From: Verrucomicrobiota bacterium
GTDB lineage: Bacteria > Pseudomonadota > Gammaproteobacteria > Nevskiales > Nevskiaceae
DNA: 32,930 bases
Direction: 5' to 3'
NCBI GenBank assembly: GCA_903970595.1
Contig: CAJCJI010000292.1
Location: forward strand, 1 to 32,930
Each line of letters starts with the position of its first letter. Position 1 is the stretch's first letter. The position numbers were made by a program, and so were the translations under genes. Positions 25,942 through 32,908 of the stretch are shown here, in pieces. The notes beneath the pieces are model-generated. The model did not search any database. It saw nothing but the letters and a program-made list of their open reading frames with translations, and was not told the DNA's origin.

Positions 25942-26223
25942 CCTGCCTCTCCCCAGGTAGTGGCGGGGGCACATAGCGGCCGCCGCGTGCAGATGCCCAG
26001 GCGGCGCCGCCGTCCTGGTTTCTACTTGCGGCTCGCTCGAATTGTGGCACAGGCGCAGGCTTTTTGTGCGGCTGCGCCCTGACCGACGGTAGAGCTTGCC
26101 TGCCGGATGCGGCATCCTTGGCCTGTGCACGATTCCTGCTTGTGCAGGAGGCGGACTGCAATCGTATCGGCTTGAAGCGCGGCCATCGGATTGGCGCATT
26201 GGGCCGTCGGCCTGGGAGCAAAG

Positions 26224-26439
26224 ATGTCCGACACCATTTACCTGGGCCGGAACGGCCAGCAATTGGGGCCCTATGCCTGGGCGCAGATGGCCGCAATGGC
26301 GTCCACCGGCCAGGTGCGGCCGGGTGATCTGGCCTGGCATGAAGGCATGCCCAACTGGCAGCCGGCCGATCAGGTGCTGACCCGGCTGGGTTTCAGCCTG
26401 CCGGAAAAGCCGCGGCCGGGACCTGGCGGAGCGCGCTGA
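26224..26439 (+). CDS. stand-alone GYF_2 domain protein
   Basis: 71 residues from the ATG at 26224, with GGGAGC seven bases upstream. The sequence is one GYF_2 domain: IYLGRNGQQLGPYAWAQMAA, then GDLAWHEGMPNWQPADQV, with the LGPY, W and GMxxWxP positions typical of the domain. GYF_2 usually sits at the N-terminus of larger bacterial membrane proteins and is thought to bind proline-rich peptides; here it is alone. It leads a same-strand run with the GIY-YIG gene, which begins 10 bases after its stop. The 282 bases upstream hold two small hairpins (26105-26117 and 26134-26149) and no other gene. Confidence 0.82.
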   Translation: MSDTIYLGRNGQQLGPYAWAQMAAMASTGQVRPGDLAWHEGMPNWQPADQVLTRLGFSLPEKPRPGPGGAR

Positions 26440-26449
26440 AACCCGCACG

Positions 26450-26767
26450 ATGCCCGCACCCGCCGGATCGAGGAAGCAGCGCCCCTGGCTGCTGTATCTG
26501 CTCGAGTGCAAGGGCAACAAGCTCTACGCCGGCATCAGCCCGGACCCCGCTGCGCGGTTCGAGCTGCATCGCACCGGCCGGGGCGCCAAATTCACCCGGG
26601 CCAATCCGCCCCTGCGCATCCTGGCGGCGCAGACCTACCCGAACCATTCGGCGGCCCTGATCGCCGAGCGGGCGCTGAAGAAACTGCGGCGCCCGGGCAA
26701 GCTTTTATGGGCCCAGGAGCGGCGCTGGCCGGCGGTCGGCCCGGGCGCACCCCTGTGCGATACTTGA
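26450..26767 (+). CDS. GIY-YIG domain protein (YhbQ/UPF0213-like)
   Basis: 105 residues. The single-domain GIY-YIG fold is seen in WLLYLLECKGNKLYAGISPD (the YLL and YAGI pair replaces the textbook GIY/YIG), RFELHRTGRGAKFTRANPP and AALIAERALKKLRRPGK, with the conserved Glu of the last block present. Short proteins of this type (YhbQ) are putative structure-specific nucleases with DNA-repair roles suggested in E. coli. The start lacks a strong ribosome site; translation may be coupled to the GYF_2 gene 10 bases upstream. The TAXI gene begins 33 bases after its stop. Confidence 0.88.
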   Translation: MPAPAGSRKQRPWLLYLLECKGNKLYAGISPDPAARFELHRTGRGAKFTRANPPLRILAAQTYPNHSAALIAERALKKLRRPGKLLWAQERRWPAVGPGAPLCDT

Positions 26768-26800: not shown

Positions 26801-28171
26801 GTGACCGAGAGCCCGCCGAAAAGGGAATTCCCCCCGCTGCGACTGCTGCAGAAGATCCCGCGAATTTCCTGGCGCGACCTCGCCGTCACGCTGGGCCCGG
26901 TGCTGCTGCTGAGCGCGCTGGCCATCCTCGCCGCCTTGCACTTCGTGCGGCCGGCGCCGCCCGGCAGCCTGACCATCAGCAGCGGGCCCGACGGCAGCAA
27001 ATTCAGGACCGTGGCGGAGAGTTACCGCAAGTTCCTGGCGAACAACGGCATCAAGCTGGTGATCCTGCCCTCGCGCGGCTCGGTCGAAAACCTGCAGCGC
27101 CTGAGCGACCCTGATTCGGGCGTCGATATCGCCCTGGTGCAGGATGGAGTCAGGCCCGACGGCGGCGACAGCAGCAGCAGCGGCGAAGGTCCCGACCTGG
27201 TCTCCCTGGGCAGCGTCTTTTACGAACCCCTGACGGTGTTCTATCGCGGCCCGCGCCCGCTCACCCGCCTGTCCGAGCTGCAGAGCAAGAAGATCGCCAT
27301 CGGCCCGGAAGGCAGCGGCACGCGCCTGCTCGCCCTGGCCCTGCTCAAGGCCAACGGGATCGAACCATCGGGGCCGACCCAGCTGCTGGACCTGGAAGGC
27401 GACGCCGCGATCAAGGCCCTGGAGGACGAACAGGTCGATGCGATCTTCCTGGCCGGCGACTCGGCCACGCCGGCCAGCATCCGCCAGACGCTGCATGCCA
27501 AGGGCGTGCGCCTGTTCGACTTTCCGCAGGCCGACGCTTACGTCCGCCGCTTCCGCTACCTGAGCAAGCTGGAGCTGCCGGCCGGCGCCTTCGACCTGGG
27601 CGACAACCTGCCGGCCGAGCCTATCGCCATGCTGGCGCCGACGGTCGAGCTGGTCGCCCGCTCGGACCTGCACCCGGCGCTGTCGGACCTGCTGATCGAG
27701 GCGGCGCAGGCCGTGCATGGCCGTGCCAGCCTGCTGCAGAACGCCAGCGAGTTCCCAGCGCCCCTGCAGCACGACTATCCGATCAGCGACGACGCGGCGC
27801 GCTACTACAAGTCCGGCCGCAGCTTCGCCTATCGCTACCTGCCGTTCTGGCTGGCCAGCCTGGCGGACCGCGCGGTGGCGGTGCTGGTGCCGATCATCGT
27901 GCTGCTCATCCCGGGGCTCAGGGCGGTTCCGGCCTTGTACGGCTGGCGCATCAACAACCGCATCTATGGCCGCTATGCCGAACTGATGGCGCTGGAGCGC
28001 GCCGTGGTGGGGCCCCTGACCGAGGAGGAACGCGTCAACATGATGAGCCGGCTGGCCGAGATCGAACGATCGGTGATCGACGCGCGCATGCCCGGCGCCT
28101 ATGCCAACCAGATCTTCCTGCTGCGCCGGCACATCAAGTTCGTGCGGGACCAGCTGGCGGAATCGGCATGA
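26801..28171 (+). CDS. membrane-anchored TAXI-family (TRAP-type) solute-binding protein
   Basis: 456 residues from a GTG start. One membrane segment lies near the N-terminus (LAVTLGPVLLLSALAILAAL, about 29-48). The TAXI/NMT1-type binding domain follows (about 54-325), with LTISSGPDGSKFRTVAESYR, VDIALVQDG, GSVFYEPLTVFYRG and IAIGPEGSGTRLLALALL. A second membrane segment (about 355-372, VAVLVPIIVLLIPGLR) precedes a charged helical tail of about 80 residues that would lie in the cytoplasm. Ordinary TAXI proteins are free periplasmic receptors for a DctM-type TRAP permease; none is present here. The gene overlaps kup by four bases (ATGA), so the two are certainly close partners in expression. Confidence 0.85.
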   Translation: MTESPPKREFPPLRLLQKIPRISWRDLAVTLGPVLLLSALAILAALHFVRPAPPGSLTISSGPDGSKFRTVAESYRKFLANNGIKLVILPSRGSVENLQRLSDPDSGVDIALVQDGVRPDGGDSSSSGEGPDLVSLGSVFYEPLTVFYRGPRPLTRLSELQSKKIAIGPEGSGTRLLALALLKANGIEPSGPTQLLDLEGDAAIKALEDEQVDAIFLAGDSATPASIRQTLHAKGVRLFDFPQADAYVRRFRYLSKLELPAGAFDLGDNLPAEPIAMLAPTVELVARSDLHPALSDLLIEAAQAVHGRASLLQNASEFPAPLQHDYPISDDAARYYKSGRSFAYRYLPFWLASLADRAVAVLVPIIVLLIPGLRAVPALYGWRINNRIYGRYAELMALERAVVGPLTEEERVNMMSRLAEIERSVIDARMPGAYANQIFLLRRHIKFVRDQLAESA

Positions 28172-30108
28172 GCCCGGAGAGCAAGGGTCCGGCGCCGCAG
28201 CCGGCCGAGGCGCCGTCGGCCACCGCGGCAGCCATCGAGCACGGCGGCCGCCCGGACATCGCCGGCAGCCTGCCCTGGCTGAGCCTGGCCGCGCTCGGCG
28301 TGGTATTCGGAGACATCGGCACCAGCCCGCTATACACGCTCAAGACCGTGCTGGACCTCGCCGGCGACAAGCCCGATGCGTTTACCGTGCTGGGCTCGCT
28401 GTCCCTGATCATTTGGACCCTGATCATCGTCACCTCGGTCAAGTACGTCGCCGTCGCCATGCGCATCGACAACGACGGCGAAGGCGGCATCCTGGCCCTG
28501 ATGTCGCTGCTGGGGGTCAAGCAGCGGCGGCGACCGGCCATCATCGCGCTGGGCCTGTTCGGCGCGGCCCTGATCTATGGCGACGGCGCCGTCACCCCCG
28601 CCATCTCCGTGCTGTCCGCGCTGGAAGGCCTGGACATGGTGGCGCCCTTGTTCAAGCCCTATATCCTGCCGGCCGCCGTGGCCGTACTGATCGGCCTGTT
28701 CGCGCTGCAGCCGCTGGGCACCGCCAAGATCGGCCGCGCCTTCGGGCCGATCATGAGCTTATGGTTCCTGATCATCGCAGCGCTTGGCGTCTGGGGCATC
28801 GCCCAGCATCCCGCCGTGCTGTGGGCCATCGATCCGCGGAATGGGCTCAAGTACCTGTTTTCCGGCGGGGCCGGCAGCTTCCTGGTGCTCGGCGGCGTAT
28901 TCCTCTGCGTCACCGGGGCCGAGGCCCTGTATGCGGACATGGGCCATTTCGGCGTCAAGCCCATCCGCCTGGCCTGGAATGCCCTGGTCTTTCCCAGCCT
29001 GGTGCTGAACTACGCGGGGCAGGGCGCGCTGGTCCTGAGCGGCGCCGCGGCGCAGGGCAACATCTTCTTCCGCCTGTGCCCGCCGCTGCTGCTGCTGCCG
29101 ATGGTGATCCTGGCCACGCTGGCCACCATCATCGCCAGCCAGTCCATCATCACCGGCGCCTTTTCGATGACGCGCCAGGCCATCCAGCTCGGCTGGATGC
29201 CGCGCCTGCGGATCAGGCAGACCTCGCAGACCGGCTACGGCCAGATCTATGTCGGGCCGGTGAACTGGCTGCTGATGCTGGTGACCCTGGGCCTGACCCT
29301 GGGCTTCCGCAAGTCCGACAATCTGGCCGCGGCCTACGGCATCGCCGTGTCCGCCACCATGCTGATGACCTCGGCGCTGCTGTACATCGCCATGCGCGAG
29401 ATCTGGCGCTGGAAGCTGCCGCTCGCCGCCGCCGTGGCCGGCACGTTCATGCTGGTCGATGCCGGATTCGCCTCGGCCAATTTCATGAAGATCGCCGCCG
29501 GGGGCTATGTGCCGCTGCTGCTCGCCGCGCTGGTCTACGGCGTGATGTGGGTATGGCATCTGGGCGCCCAGGCGGTATGGGCCCGCATCCAGGAGCACAT
29601 GATGCCGATCGGGGAGTTGCTGTCATTGCTGGCCGAGCGCCGCATTCCACGGGTCCCGGGCACGGCGGTGTTCCTGACGCGCACGCTGCAGGACGCGCCG
29701 CCCGTCATGGTCTGGCACATCAGGCAGAATCGCGCCCTGCACGAGCGCGTGCTGATCGTCACCACCCTCACCGAATCCACGCCCTGGATGCGGAACCGGG
29801 AGCGCCTGAAGGTGGAGGAGATCGGCGCCGGCATCTGGCGCGCCACCGCCCGTTTCGGTTTCATGGAACGGCCGGACATTCCGTCCCTGCTCGGCCCGGC
29901 CAACGAGCTGGGCTGCAAGCTGAAGCTGGACGATGTCACTTACTACGTGGGGCACGAAACCGTGGTGCGCCGCCGCGACGGCAAGGGGCTGCCGCGCGTG
30001 GTGGAAGGCATCTTCGCCTACCTGCAGCGCAATTCGGTGCATGTCAGCGACTATTTCAAACTGCCGCCCGACGCGGTGGTGGAACTGGGCAGGGAAATTG
30101 CGATTTGA
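28168..30108 (+). CDS. kup: Kup-family potassium uptake protein
   Basis: 646 residues. The family signature VVFGDIGTSPLYTLKTVLDL is at about 46-65, and there are further marks NDGEGGILALMSLLGVKQRR, YGDGAVTPAISVLSALEGLD, TGAEALYADMGHFG and GQIYVGPVNWLLM. About 12 membrane segments occupy residues 35-450, and a cytoplasmic C-terminal domain of about 190 residues ends the protein. Kup proteins bring K+ into the cell by K+/H+ symport and are low-affinity, pH-tolerant systems; some homologues respond to cyclic di-AMP or bind caesium. The start overlaps the TAXI gene by four bases. The ribosome site lies inside that gene. Confidence 0.95.
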   Translation: MSPESKGPAPQPAEAPSATAAAIEHGGRPDIAGSLPWLSLAALGVVFGDIGTSPLYTLKTVLDLAGDKPDAFTVLGSLSLIIWTLIIVTSVKYVAVAMRIDNDGEGGILALMSLLGVKQRRRPAIIALGLFGAALIYGDGAVTPAISVLSALEGLDMVAPLFKPYILPAAVAVLIGLFALQPLGTAKIGRAFGPIMSLWFLIIAALGVWGIAQHPAVLWAIDPRNGLKYLFSGGAGSFLVLGGVFLCVTGAEALYADMGHFGVKPIRLAWNALVFPSLVLNYAGQGALVLSGAAAQGNIFFRLCPPLLLLPMVILATLATIIASQSIITGAFSMTRQAIQLGWMPRLRIRQTSQTGYGQIYVGPVNWLLMLVTLGLTLGFRKSDNLAAAYGIAVSATMLMTSALLYIAMREIWRWKLPLAAAVAGTFMLVDAGFASANFMKIAAGGYVPLLLAALVYGVMWVWHLGAQAVWARIQEHMMPIGELLSLLAERRIPRVPGTAVFLTRTLQDAPPVMVWHIRQNRALHERVLIVTTLTESTPWMRNRERLKVEEIGAGIWRATARFGFMERPDIPSLLGPANELGCKLKLDDVTYYVGHETVVRRRDGKGLPRVVEGIFAYLQRNSVHVSDYFKLPPDAVVELGREIAI

Positions 30109-30304: not shown

Positions 30305-31900
30305 ATGAGCGGCGGGGAACACGGTTCGATGAGCCGGCGCGAGTTGCTGATGATGATCGGCGCCGCGGCGGGAAGCTCGGTGGCCTACCGCGCCATGGCC
30401 AGTCTCGACCTGGCGCCGGAGTCCGACTACCAGGGGCCGATCAAGCTCGAGGGCGATCCCAATGGGACCTCGGTGCTGATCCTCGGCGCCGGGCTCGCCG
30501 GCCTGGTGGCCGCGCTGGAGCTGCGCAAGGCCGGATACAAGGTGCAGGTGCTGGAATACAACGAGCGCGTCGGCGGCCGCAACTGGACCCTCCGCGGCGG
30601 CGACACCTACACCGAGATGGGCGGGTTCCAGCAAAAGTGCGAGTTCGACCCCGGGCTCTATCTCAACCCGGGCCCCTGGCGCCTGCCCTATCACCACAAT
30701 GCCATTCTCGACTACTGCAAGCGCCTCGGCGTGGTGCTCGAGCCGTTCAACCAGGTCAATTACAACGCCTACCTGCATTCCCCCAGGGCTTTCGGCGGCA
30801 AGCCGCAGCGCTACCGTCACCTGCAGGCGGACTTCAACGGCGGCGTGGCCGAGCTGCTGGCCAAGACCACAAAACAAAGCAAGCTGGACCATGCGGTATC
30901 CAAGGAGGACCGCGAGATCCTGCTGGAGTCGCTGCAGAACTGGGGCGCGCTGGACAAGAACTACGCGTACGTCAAAGGCTTCGATTCCAGCGAGCGGCGC
31001 GGTTACGACCGGGACCCCCGCGGCGGCGCGGGCGCCGTGCCCACGCCCTCGCAGCCGATCGCCTTGGACGAGATCCTGAAGTCCGGCCTGTGGCGCTATC
31101 TGATCCACGGGCACGTCTACGAATTCCAGACCACCCTGTTCCAGCCGGTCGGCGGCATGGACATGATCTCCAAGGCCTTCGCCCGCGAGGTCGGCGACCT
31201 GGTGCGCTTCAACTGCAAGGTCACCGCCATCAAGCAGAGCGCGGACAAGGTGACGGCCAGTTACATCGACAGCAAGTCGGGCGGGGCGCCGACCCAGGTC
31301 ACGGCGGACTGGTGCCTGTGCACCATCCCGGCCTCGATCCTGAGCCAGATGGACCTGGACGTCGGCGCGCCGATGCGCGATGCGATCAATGCCTTGCCTT
31401 ACGCGGCCTCGATCAAGGTCGGCCTGCAGGCGAAACGCCGCTTCTGGGAGCAGGACGAAGGAATCTACGGCGGCATCAGCTTCACCGATCTGCCCAATAA
31501 CCAGATCGCCTATCCCAACACCGGCTACTTCGGCTCCGGCAAGGGCATTCTGCTCGGCGCCTACACCTTCGGCCCGCATGCCTACGAATTCACCGCGCTG
31601 CCGCCCGAGGAACGGGTCAGGAAGGCCATCGAGTACGGCGCCCAGATCCATCCCCAGTACAAGGACGAGATCGAGAACGGCATCGCCGTCGGCTGGAACC
31701 GTGTGCCCTGGATCATGGGCTGCGCCGGCGAATGGAACGAGGAACGGCGCAGGCTGCATTACAAGGACCTGTGCCAGATCGACGGCCGGGTGCTGCTGGC
31801 GGGAGAGCATGTTTCCTATATCCCCGCGTGGCAGGAAGGCGCCATCACCTCGTCCCTGGACGCGATTTCGCGCCTGCACCAGCGCGTGGTGAACGGCTGA
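30305..31900 (+). CDS. Tat-exported flavin amine oxidase
   Basis: 531 residues from the ATG at 30305, with GGGGG six bases upstream. A twin-arginine signal is visible: SRRELLMMIGAAAGSSVAYR (RR at 11-12). The FAD fold starts with VLILGAGLAGLVAALELRKA (GAGLAG 61-66), Glu84 and VGGR (89-92), and closes with GRVLLAGEHVSYIPAWQEGA near the C-terminus; both ends are typical of the flavin monoamine oxidase family. It should fold with FAD in the cytoplasm and be sent across the membrane to oxidise an amine (C-N bond) to an imine. The next gene, a c-type cytochrome, is a likely electron acceptor, as CycN is for NicA2. The substrate is not evident. Confidence 0.88.
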   Translation: MSGGEHGSMSRRELLMMIGAAAGSSVAYRAMASLDLAPESDYQGPIKLEGDPNGTSVLILGAGLAGLVAALELRKAGYKVQVLEYNERVGGRNWTLRGGDTYTEMGGFQQKCEFDPGLYLNPGPWRLPYHHNAILDYCKRLGVVLEPFNQVNYNAYLHSPRAFGGKPQRYRHLQADFNGGVAELLAKTTKQSKLDHAVSKEDREILLESLQNWGALDKNYAYVKGFDSSERRGYDRDPRGGAGAVPTPSQPIALDEILKSGLWRYLIHGHVYEFQTTLFQPVGGMDMISKAFAREVGDLVRFNCKVTAIKQSADKVTASYIDSKSGGAPTQVTADWCLCTIPASILSQMDLDVGAPMRDAINALPYAASIKVGLQAKRRFWEQDEGIYGGISFTDLPNNQIAYPNTGYFGSGKGILLGAYTFGPHAYEFTALPPEERVRKAIEYGAQIHPQYKDEIENGIAVGWNRVPWIMGCAGEWNEERRRLHYKDLCQIDGRVLLAGEHVSYIPAWQEGAITSSLDAISRLHQRVVNG

Positions 31901-31932
31901 TGCGCGCCATGACCCGTCACAAGGAGCATCCC

Positions 31933-32364
31933 GTGAACCCCATTTCGCGCCATGCGCGCCGGGCCCTGTGCGCGAGCCTGATGATGTTGGCCGGCCCCGC
32001 GGCGCAGGCGCAAAGCAACGACCACAGCATCAGCAGCGGCACGAGCTTCGAGCAGCGTACCGGCGAAGACCTGTTCGAAGGCATCTGCCAGGGCTGCCAC
32101 ATGCCGCTGGCGCAGGGCGCCGTCGGCGCCGCCGCCTTCCCGGCCTTGGCCGCCAATCCGCACCTGGCCTCGAAGATCTACCCGGCCTTCATCCTGGTCA
32201 ACGGCAAAGCCAATATGCCGAATTTCTCCGGCATGCTCGACGACCAGCAGATCGCCGCCGTGGTCAATTACGTGCGCAGCCATTTCGGCAACCACTACAC
32301 CGATGAACTGACCCCCGCCGAAGTGAAGGCCCTGCGCCCGAAGCATCCTGTTCCGTCCGATTGA
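31933..32364 (+). CDS. periplasmic c-type cytochrome (single heme)
   Basis: 143 residues. I chose the GTG at 31933 because AAGGAG lies seven bases upstream; an ATG at 31900, overlapping the amine oxidase stop by one base, is a second possibility. The signal peptide (ALCASLMMLAGPAAQAQ) is cleaved about residue 27. One heme site, C52-Q-G-C55-H56, and a likely axial Met95 in GKANMPNFSG, followed by DDQQIAAVVNYVRSHF, define a class I cytochrome c. It would carry electrons from the preceding flavin amine oxidase toward a respiratory oxidase. The RidA-like gene follows by 25 bases. Confidence 0.9.
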   Translation: MNPISRHARRALCASLMMLAGPAAQAQSNDHSISSGTSFEQRTGEDLFEGICQGCHMPLAQGAVGAAAFPALAANPHLASKIYPAFILVNGKANMPNFSGMLDDQQIAAVVNYVRSHFGNHYTDELTPAEVKALRPKHPVPSD

Positions 32365-32389
32365 ATCCAGCTCAAATGGGAGAACCCGC

Positions 32390-32908
32390 ATGAACAGCAG
32401 TTCGATGTTGCGCGCCATCGGCCTGAGCCTGGCCGTAGCCGCTGTACTTTTCGGTACCAGCGCCTGCGGCAAGGCCGGCGTCACCCGCTACAAGCTTCCC
32501 AACAATTCCAAGTTCCCCATCTCGATGGGCGTTGAGATTCCCGCCGGCAAGAGCATCATCTTCCTCAGCGGCATGGTGCCGCCGGTGGTCGACGAAACCC
32601 AGCCCAAGGATTCCATCGCCGCCTACGGCGACACCAAGACCCAGACCATCGGCGCCCTGAAAACCATCGAGGCCAACCTGAAAAGCATAGGCCTGGGCAT
32701 GGGCGACGTGGTCAAGATGCAGGTCTTCATGGCCGGCGACCCCGCCAAAGGCGGCAAGCTGGATTTCCCCGGCATGATGGAAGGCTACACGCAGTTCTTC
32801 GGCACCGCGGAACAGCCCAACCTGCCGACCCGCTCCGCCATGCAGGTGGCAGCGCTGGCCAATCCGGGATTTCTGGTTGAGATCGAAGTGGCGGCGGTTC
32901 GTCCCTGA
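32390..32908 (+). CDS. exported RidA/YjgF-family protein, possibly a lipoprotein
   Basis: 172 residues; GGGAG precedes the ATG. The N-terminal 26 residues form a signal segment ending in GTSAC: Cys26 could be lipidated, but the box is weak (Thr at -3), so plain secretion is possible. The RidA fold follows (about 40-172), with SIIFLSGMVPPVVDE, TQTIGALKTIEANLKSIGLG and MGDVVKMQVFMAGD. Arg148 in LPTRS and Glu164 in VEIEVAAVR correspond to the catalytic pair Arg105 and Glu120 of E. coli RidA, with one extra residue between. RidA hydrolyses reactive imines and enamines in the cytoplasm; an exported copy after an amine oxidase suggests hydrolysis of its imine product. Confidence 0.87.
   Translation: MNSSSMLRAIGLSLAVAAVLFGTSACGKAGVTRYKLPNNSKFPISMGVEIPAGKSIIFLSGMVPPVVDETQPKDSIAAYGDTKTQTIGALKTIEANLKSIGLGMGDVVKMQVFMAGDPAKGGKLDFPGMMEGYTQFFGTAEQPNLPTRSAMQVAALANPGFLVEIEVAAVRP

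Follow-up and report, generated by a model that had tools for sequence, protein, structure and literature searches.

The contig CAJCJI010000292.1 of assembly GCA_903970595.1, from a Verrucomicrobiota bacterium placed by GTDB in the family Nevskiaceae of the Gammaproteobacteria, was analyzed over its entire length (positions 1 to 32,930, read on the + strand; hereafter the window). Its final three genes share the + strand and encode a flavin amine oxidase (FAO), a single-heme cytochrome c and a Rid-family protein, with the contig ending 22 bases past the stop codon of the last. The lao-like FAO gene (30305-31900) extends from an ATG at 30305 to a stop at 31898-31900 and encodes 531 residues. 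The cccA-like cytochrome gene (31933-32364) starts at a GTG at 31933, encodes the motif CQGCH at 32086-32100 and stops at 32362-32364, whilst the ridA-like gene (32390-32908) runs from an ATG at 32390 to a stop at 32906-32908 and encodes 172 residues. The GTG start is preceded by AAGGAG at 31921-31926, and an alternative ATG at 31900 would overlap the FAO stop. A reading of the same DNA from its sequence alone (the sequence-only reading) had reported this arrangement, and its positions, common strand and intergenic gaps of 32 and 25 bases were all verified. Every product has Pfam matches above the curated cut-offs: Amino_oxidase for the FAO (E 2.2e-52), Cytochrome_CBB3 (9.9e-11) and Cytochrom_C (1e-8) for the cytochrome, and Ribonuc_L-PSP for the Rid (5.1e-16).

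The same three families, in the same order and on one strand, form the lao-cccA-ridA operon (GDI2456-GDI2454, with GDI2456 being lao) of Gluconacetobacter diazotrophicus PAL5, published in 2016 (PMC5053998). One published primer led to two genomes of that family, whose loci were compared with the window; the primers in Table 1 of that paper match the first (L196) in six of six cases and the second (L195) in five of six. L196 shares the gene order of the window, with 53% identity between the FAOs over 518 residues, 42% between the cytochromes over 154 and 55% between the Rids over 143, and the window trio is orthologous to this operon. Two Tn5 insertions within the G. diazotrophicus lao gene abolished formation of indole-3-acetic acid (IAA), left tryptophan in the medium and lowered all three transcripts, and ccm mutants, cited in the same work, make 5% of the IAA (PMC5053998). 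Its authors propose that the cytochrome and RidA work with the L-amino acid oxidase (LAAO), suggest a periplasmic location, and describe the same organization in Caulobacter crescentus and Xanthomonas (PMC5053998). As in the window, the LAAO has a signal for twin-arginine translocation (Tat), and the Rid of L196 opens with a signal peptide, MVKTMAGAAALAAVLGVGMASPTRAAD. The lipobox-like Cys described below for the genus of the window is missing from the G. diazotrophicus Rid, and the organism and probably the physiology differ.

This operon revises the context in which the trio was first placed. The sequence-only reading knew of no described system that adds an exported RidA to an oxidase and cytochrome; such a protein is present in the G. 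diazotrophicus operon, and in Chlamydomonas a periplasmic LAAO has a RidA partner (PMC5053998, PMC10805672). In the latter, LAO1 with LAO2/RIDA yields indole-pyruvate from tryptophan, and the bacterial cluster is cited in that work (PMC10805672). LAO1 thus resembles the window in being an extracytoplasmic LAAO with a RidA partner; it differs in forming H2O2, in being eukaryotic, and in that the described cluster features no cytochrome. Literature searches for exported RidA proteins linked to amino acid oxidases yielded only PMC5053998, and among the papers listed on cytochrome c-dependent periplasmic L-amino acid dehydrogenases none concerned this system. The precedent first invoked was NicA2 with CycN of Pseudomonas putida S16. 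This NicA2-Pnao-CycN system and the FAO-CytC dehydrogenases related to it likewise pair a Tat-exported flavoenzyme with a neighboring exported cytochrome c, and in the NicA2 branch a Tat signal and adjacent CytC mark dehydrogenases (PMC12224317). The precedent probably works alike, by the same electron route, yet lao-cccA-ridA is the nearest described system: the window FAO is of LAAO type and is accompanied by an exported Rid. Neither L-amino acid oxidases nor "Rid" appear in the main text of PMC12224317.

The FAO begins MSGGEHGSMSRRELLMMIGAAAGSSVAYRAMAS, which combines a twin-arginine motif (RR at residues 11-12) with a hydrophobic segment and an A-M-A site. When the protein was searched against the PDB with phmmer, the LAAO of Rhodococcus opacus (2jae) was the top match (310 bits, E 2.2e-91, residues 55-529 aligned), followed by reconstructed LAAO ancestors and snake-venom LAAOs at about 120-152 bits, whereas no putrescine or monoamine oxidase exceeded about 54 bits. 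An AlphaFold2 model of the window protein, for which 34 relatives were also used (mean predicted local distance difference test score 81.1), superposes on 2jae with Z 51.6 and a root-mean-square deviation of 1.6 over 394 residues, compared with Z 37.7 for snake LAAO and about 33 for monoamine oxidases. NicA2 was found neither among the 60 of 104 PDB chains listed by phmmer nor among the 50 fold matches listed. Arg126 and Tyr420 of the FAO align with Arg84 and Tyr371 of R. opacus LAAO, which we take to be the carboxylate binders, although a literature search yielded no paper giving these residues. Across relatives down to 35% identity (alignment A4), Arg126 is kept in 37 of 37 sequences and Tyr420 in 35, with Phe in the other two. 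Because the best sequence match, the fold and both carboxylate-binding positions are LAAO-like, the substrate class is likely L-amino acids, which narrows the choice of polyamine, aromatic, alkaloid or steroidal amine that had earlier been left open. The position equivalent to a Trp of R. opacus LAAO, residue 474, is variable (Trp in 7/37, Ala in the window protein), and the side-chain preference of the FAO may therefore differ from that of the R. opacus enzyme. The two enzymes share their fold and the aligned carboxylate-binding residues; the R. opacus protein is named an oxidase, unlike the dehydrogenase role proposed here.

The cytochrome has a signal-like N-terminus ending PAAQA/QS, consistent with Sec export. 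The genome of the window also encodes TatC and the cytochrome c maturation protein CcmH, so an exported FAO and cytochrome could be made there.

For the Rid, the closest solved structures are PSPTO3006 (Z 19.8) and PFL1385 (Z 17.2), the next standing at Z 12.8; both are assigned to the Rid3 subfamily (PMC5619798). When the protein is aligned to TdcF, its Arg148 and Glu164 fall on the catalytic Arg105 and Glu120 and its Ile44 on Tyr17, reproducing the reported Rid3 signature of conserved Arg and Glu with Ile replacing Tyr17 (PMC4433059). In the Rids of alignment A6, Arg148 and Glu164 are each kept in 22 of 22 and Ile44 in 21 of 22. Rid3 proteins reduce the semicarbazone signal of LAAO-made imines in vitro with L-Leu, Gln, Phe, Met and His (PMC5619798, Table 4); their in vivo substrates have been called unknown, and genes of RidA, and sometimes Rid3, cluster with FAD (flavin adenine dinucleotide) amine oxidases (PMC4433059). 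The window Rid thus shares its nearest structures and residue signature with this subfamily. As regards export, "periplasm" occurs in the main text of neither paper, nor does "signal peptide" in that of PMC4433059 or "signal" in that of PMC5619798.

To assess Rid export more widely, we applied a crude rule made for this analysis, comprising a charged start, a hydrophobic core, and an A-x-A site or lipobox, taking the best of several start codons. It identified an export signal in 54 of the 55 Rids adjoining this oxidase family (41 from named loci and 14 from the window and other relatives), compared with 2 of 26 further members of the Rid family drawn from 21 genomes near that of the window. 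One control row (L218) is misplaced, making 2/25 the fairer count. The single failure, L095, is split over two frames, and for L121 the rule chose a start that is not credible, yet a signal-like stretch is visible. The two positive controls (L217 and L219) resemble genuine exported Rids of other types; both belong to the genus of the window, and one has a twin-arginine-like start. A cytoplasmic Rid, which the sequence-only reading had named as counting against it, is thus rejected at the level of prediction by these N-termini. Export of all three proteins is likewise supported by prediction, through the Tat motif of the FAO and the signals of the cytochrome and Rid.

The Rid of the window may in addition be lipid-anchored. 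A lipobox-like site, GTSAC with Cys26, follows its hydrophobic stretch, and the site reads TSAC in the window and TSAC and TSGC in its closest relatives (L030 and L031), whilst none of the other 21 rows of A6 has Cys at this column. Thr at position -3 is unusual for the lipobox consensus, and the T-S-A could also be a signal peptidase I site. We consider the Rid of this genus likely to be a lipoprotein, judging by its predicted N-terminus. The genus itself lies near named Nevskia and Solimonas loci; in one congener (L031, G006:C328) the oxidase gene contains one in-frame stop, indicating either a pseudogene or a sequence error.

To determine how widely the trio occurs, named genomes were scanned with an alignment of 16 relatives, which matched at least 595 stretches and gave at least 585 relatives; the best 80 loci were kept. 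These are 57-69% identical to the FAO and derive from 43 Alpha-, 29 Gamma- and 6 Betaproteobacteria, with two lacking a class; 79/80 belong to Pseudomonadota. A same-strand cytochrome adjoins the oxidase in 77 loci (all except L077, L127 and L129), and both cytochrome and Rid are present in 41 (19 Alpha-, 18 Gamma- and 3 Betaproteobacteria, and one unclassed). Because these 80 are the best matches, an even draw of 398 Pseudomonadota genomes was taken as well. FAO matches at E 1e-80 or better were found in 27 of these, counting that of the window. Excluding the latter, 16 places at 49-63% identity all have the cytochrome, and ten have the Rid as well. The trio's conservation, on which the sequence-only reading had also staked itself, is borne out by both samples. 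The arrangement is not due to chance, since it recurs across Alpha-, Beta- and Gammaproteobacteria.

The 14 places at 36-44% identity are more varied: three feature a single-heme cytochrome and Rid, three a two-heme cytochrome and Rid (G400, G408 and G270), five a Rid without cytochrome, and three have neither close by. Here, absence of a cytochrome was judged by phmmer with the window cytochrome, together with a search of the following 600 bases for CxxCH. The two-heme cytochrome lies between oxidase and Rid (L180:5226-5846; L181:3507-4129, minus strand; and L182), and in G400 its protein comprises two cytochrome c domains by Pfam, which we read as cytochrome c4-like. Gene order and copy number also vary. 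In L166 (G215), one copy lies upstream with the order Rid-cytochrome-oxidase, and L114 has the order cytochrome-oxidase-oxidase-cytochrome. In a relative of the window's family (L037, G027:C1:88000-103000), the oxidase is present in three tandem copies, accompanied by two cytochrome and three Rid genes. A congener (L036, G007:C1:4500-19000) carries an oxidase-Rid pair of the 40% type about 3 kb from an oxidase-cytochrome pair of the 65% type, where one Rid might serve both oxidases.

We then asked how the neighboring genes map onto the oxidase phylogeny, using a quick maximum-likelihood tree (unrooted, and with three long end branches, one of which is a two-heme row) for which the 132 oxidases found had been thinned to 95. 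The acceptor state requires five changes on this tree, compared with a mean of 21.2 after shuffling, which supports the cytochrome as electron acceptor of the FAO. The three two-heme rows form one group with support 99, beside rows in which a Rid stands without a cytochrome. The acceptor gene thus tracks the oxidase clade; the Rid, by contrast, appears and disappears or changes place.

Taken together, these data suggest that the window trio, as an operon orthologous to lao-cccA-ridA, probably encodes a periplasmic L-amino acid dehydrogenase with its own cytochrome and a Rid3 imine hydrolase. The FAO is predicted to be exported folded by Tat and, by analogy with the homologs described above, would oxidize L-amino acids once in the periplasm, yielding 2-imino acids. 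The cytochrome c encoded alongside would then receive single electrons in succession from the reduced FAD and relay them to the respiratory chain. The exported Rid3 would hydrolyze the imino acid to a 2-oxo acid and ammonium at its site of formation. The route of oxidation, transfer to cytochrome and on-site imine hydrolysis advanced by the sequence-only reading is therefore plausible as an inference. Physiologically, the system may let the cell draw on external amino acids for nitrogen and energy, or may form indole-pyruvate and auxin from tryptophan.

Several points weigh against this interpretation. The electrons may go to an acceptor other than the cytochrome. The rule that a Tat signal with CytC denotes a dehydrogenase rests on NicA2-like enzymes (PMC12224317). 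Some of the more distant relatives have neither the single-heme nor the two-heme cytochrome, and Lys371 of the FAO, conserved in 37/37 sequences, is present in true oxidases too. The contributions of the cytochrome and Rid in G. diazotrophicus were not separated, because the Tn5 insertions affected all three transcripts and the study included no complementation (PMC5053998). In 39 of the 80 loci no Rid directly follows the cytochrome (in one of these, L087, fewer than 200 bases of contig are left), and at least 23 switches of Rid state are needed on the oxidase tree. These changes weaken the claim that the Rid must sit in the operon and, together with the 39 loci, suggest that the Rid is dispensable or acts from elsewhere.

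Among the alternatives, there is a small but appreciable chance that the FAO is a true periplasmic oxidase, passing electrons to O2 to form H2O2 for antimicrobial or nitrogen-scavenging purposes like other secreted LAAOs, with the cytochrome serving some other function, such as peroxide or respiratory work. Consistent with this, its best structural match (2jae) was deposited as an oxidase, and the five Rid-only relatives at 36-44% identity (L179 and L184-L187) indicate that the fold can presumably use another acceptor. Against it stand the near-constant cytochrome at 49% identity and above, in all 16 places of the even draw and 77 of the 80 loci, the use of this gene pair as a mark of dehydrogenases in the NicA2 branch (PMC12224317), and the loss of IAA formation in the ccm mutants cited for G. 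diazotrophicus (PMC5053998). It is unlikely that the exported Rid acts as a structural partner or stabilizer of the oxidase instead of an imine hydrolase, as the M-beta subunit of Chlamydomonas may do; a periplasmic LAAO in complex with a RidA protein is cited from that organism (PMC5053998), but the catalytic Arg148 and Glu164 are invariant in the aligned Rids and Rid3 proteins show imine deaminase activity in vitro (PMC5619798). The structural and hydrolytic roles are compatible with each other. Least probable is a dehydrogenase for some other amine (polyamine, aromatic or alkaloid), NicA2-like in mechanism and substrate, which the breadth of the superfamily and the variable residue 474 would allow, but which is displaced as first choice by LAAO matches far above those to amine oxidases in sequence and fold, by the retained carboxylate-binding pair, and by the requirement for the G. 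diazotrophicus ortholog in tryptophan use (PMC5053998).

Genes beyond the trio are less consistent. In the window, the FAO gene is preceded by genes for a Kup potassium transporter domain protein (28168-30108) and an NMT1-like solute-binding protein (26801-28171), as annotated by Pfam; further upstream adjoin those for a small GYF_2-domain protein (26191-26439) and a GIY-YIG-domain protein (26450-26767). Greedy clustering of open reading frames across the 80 loci, which undercounts, since even the FAO was picked up in no more than 59, revealed no further gene that is a constant partner of the trio. Proteins the size of TonB-dependent receptors form clusters of 15/80 and 7/80 loci, and an M20-peptidase cluster lies downstream in 7/80, with one example of each cluster read by Pfam; loci with such neighbors include L130, L103 and their cluster mates, and L060. 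A TonB-dependent receptor and an M20 peptidase near the operon would fit the use of outside peptides and amino acids. The second-largest cluster (28 loci) and another of 11 loci lie over the operon on the opposite strand and are probably shadow open reading frames.

An operon of this kind was known already; possibly new are its breadth, the exported Rid3 as a regular but not constant partner, the exchanged cytochrome, and a probable lipoprotein Rid in the genus of the window. A broader proposal, which we advance tentatively and regard as slightly short of an even chance, is that Rid3 is largely a dedicated extracytoplasmic 2-imino-acid hydrolase whose partners are exported L-amino acid dehydrogenases of a single clade, in which the acceptor has been exchanged (single-heme, diheme c4-like, or none in the operon) whilst the FAO-Rid pair was kept. 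If so, the rule equating a Tat signal and CytC with a dehydrogenase would reach beyond NicA2-like enzymes to cover the LAAO branch, and Rid3 would gain a physiological role. The trio thus represents a published but little-followed gene cluster, widespread in Proteobacteria, with testable chemistry in the form of respiration on outside amino acids and on-site imine removal, and it suggests what the Rid3 subfamily may do. Among annotated "L-amino acid oxidases", many of those encoded beside a cytochrome may be dehydrogenases and, for plant-associated carriers, the system may bear on bacterial auxin formation.

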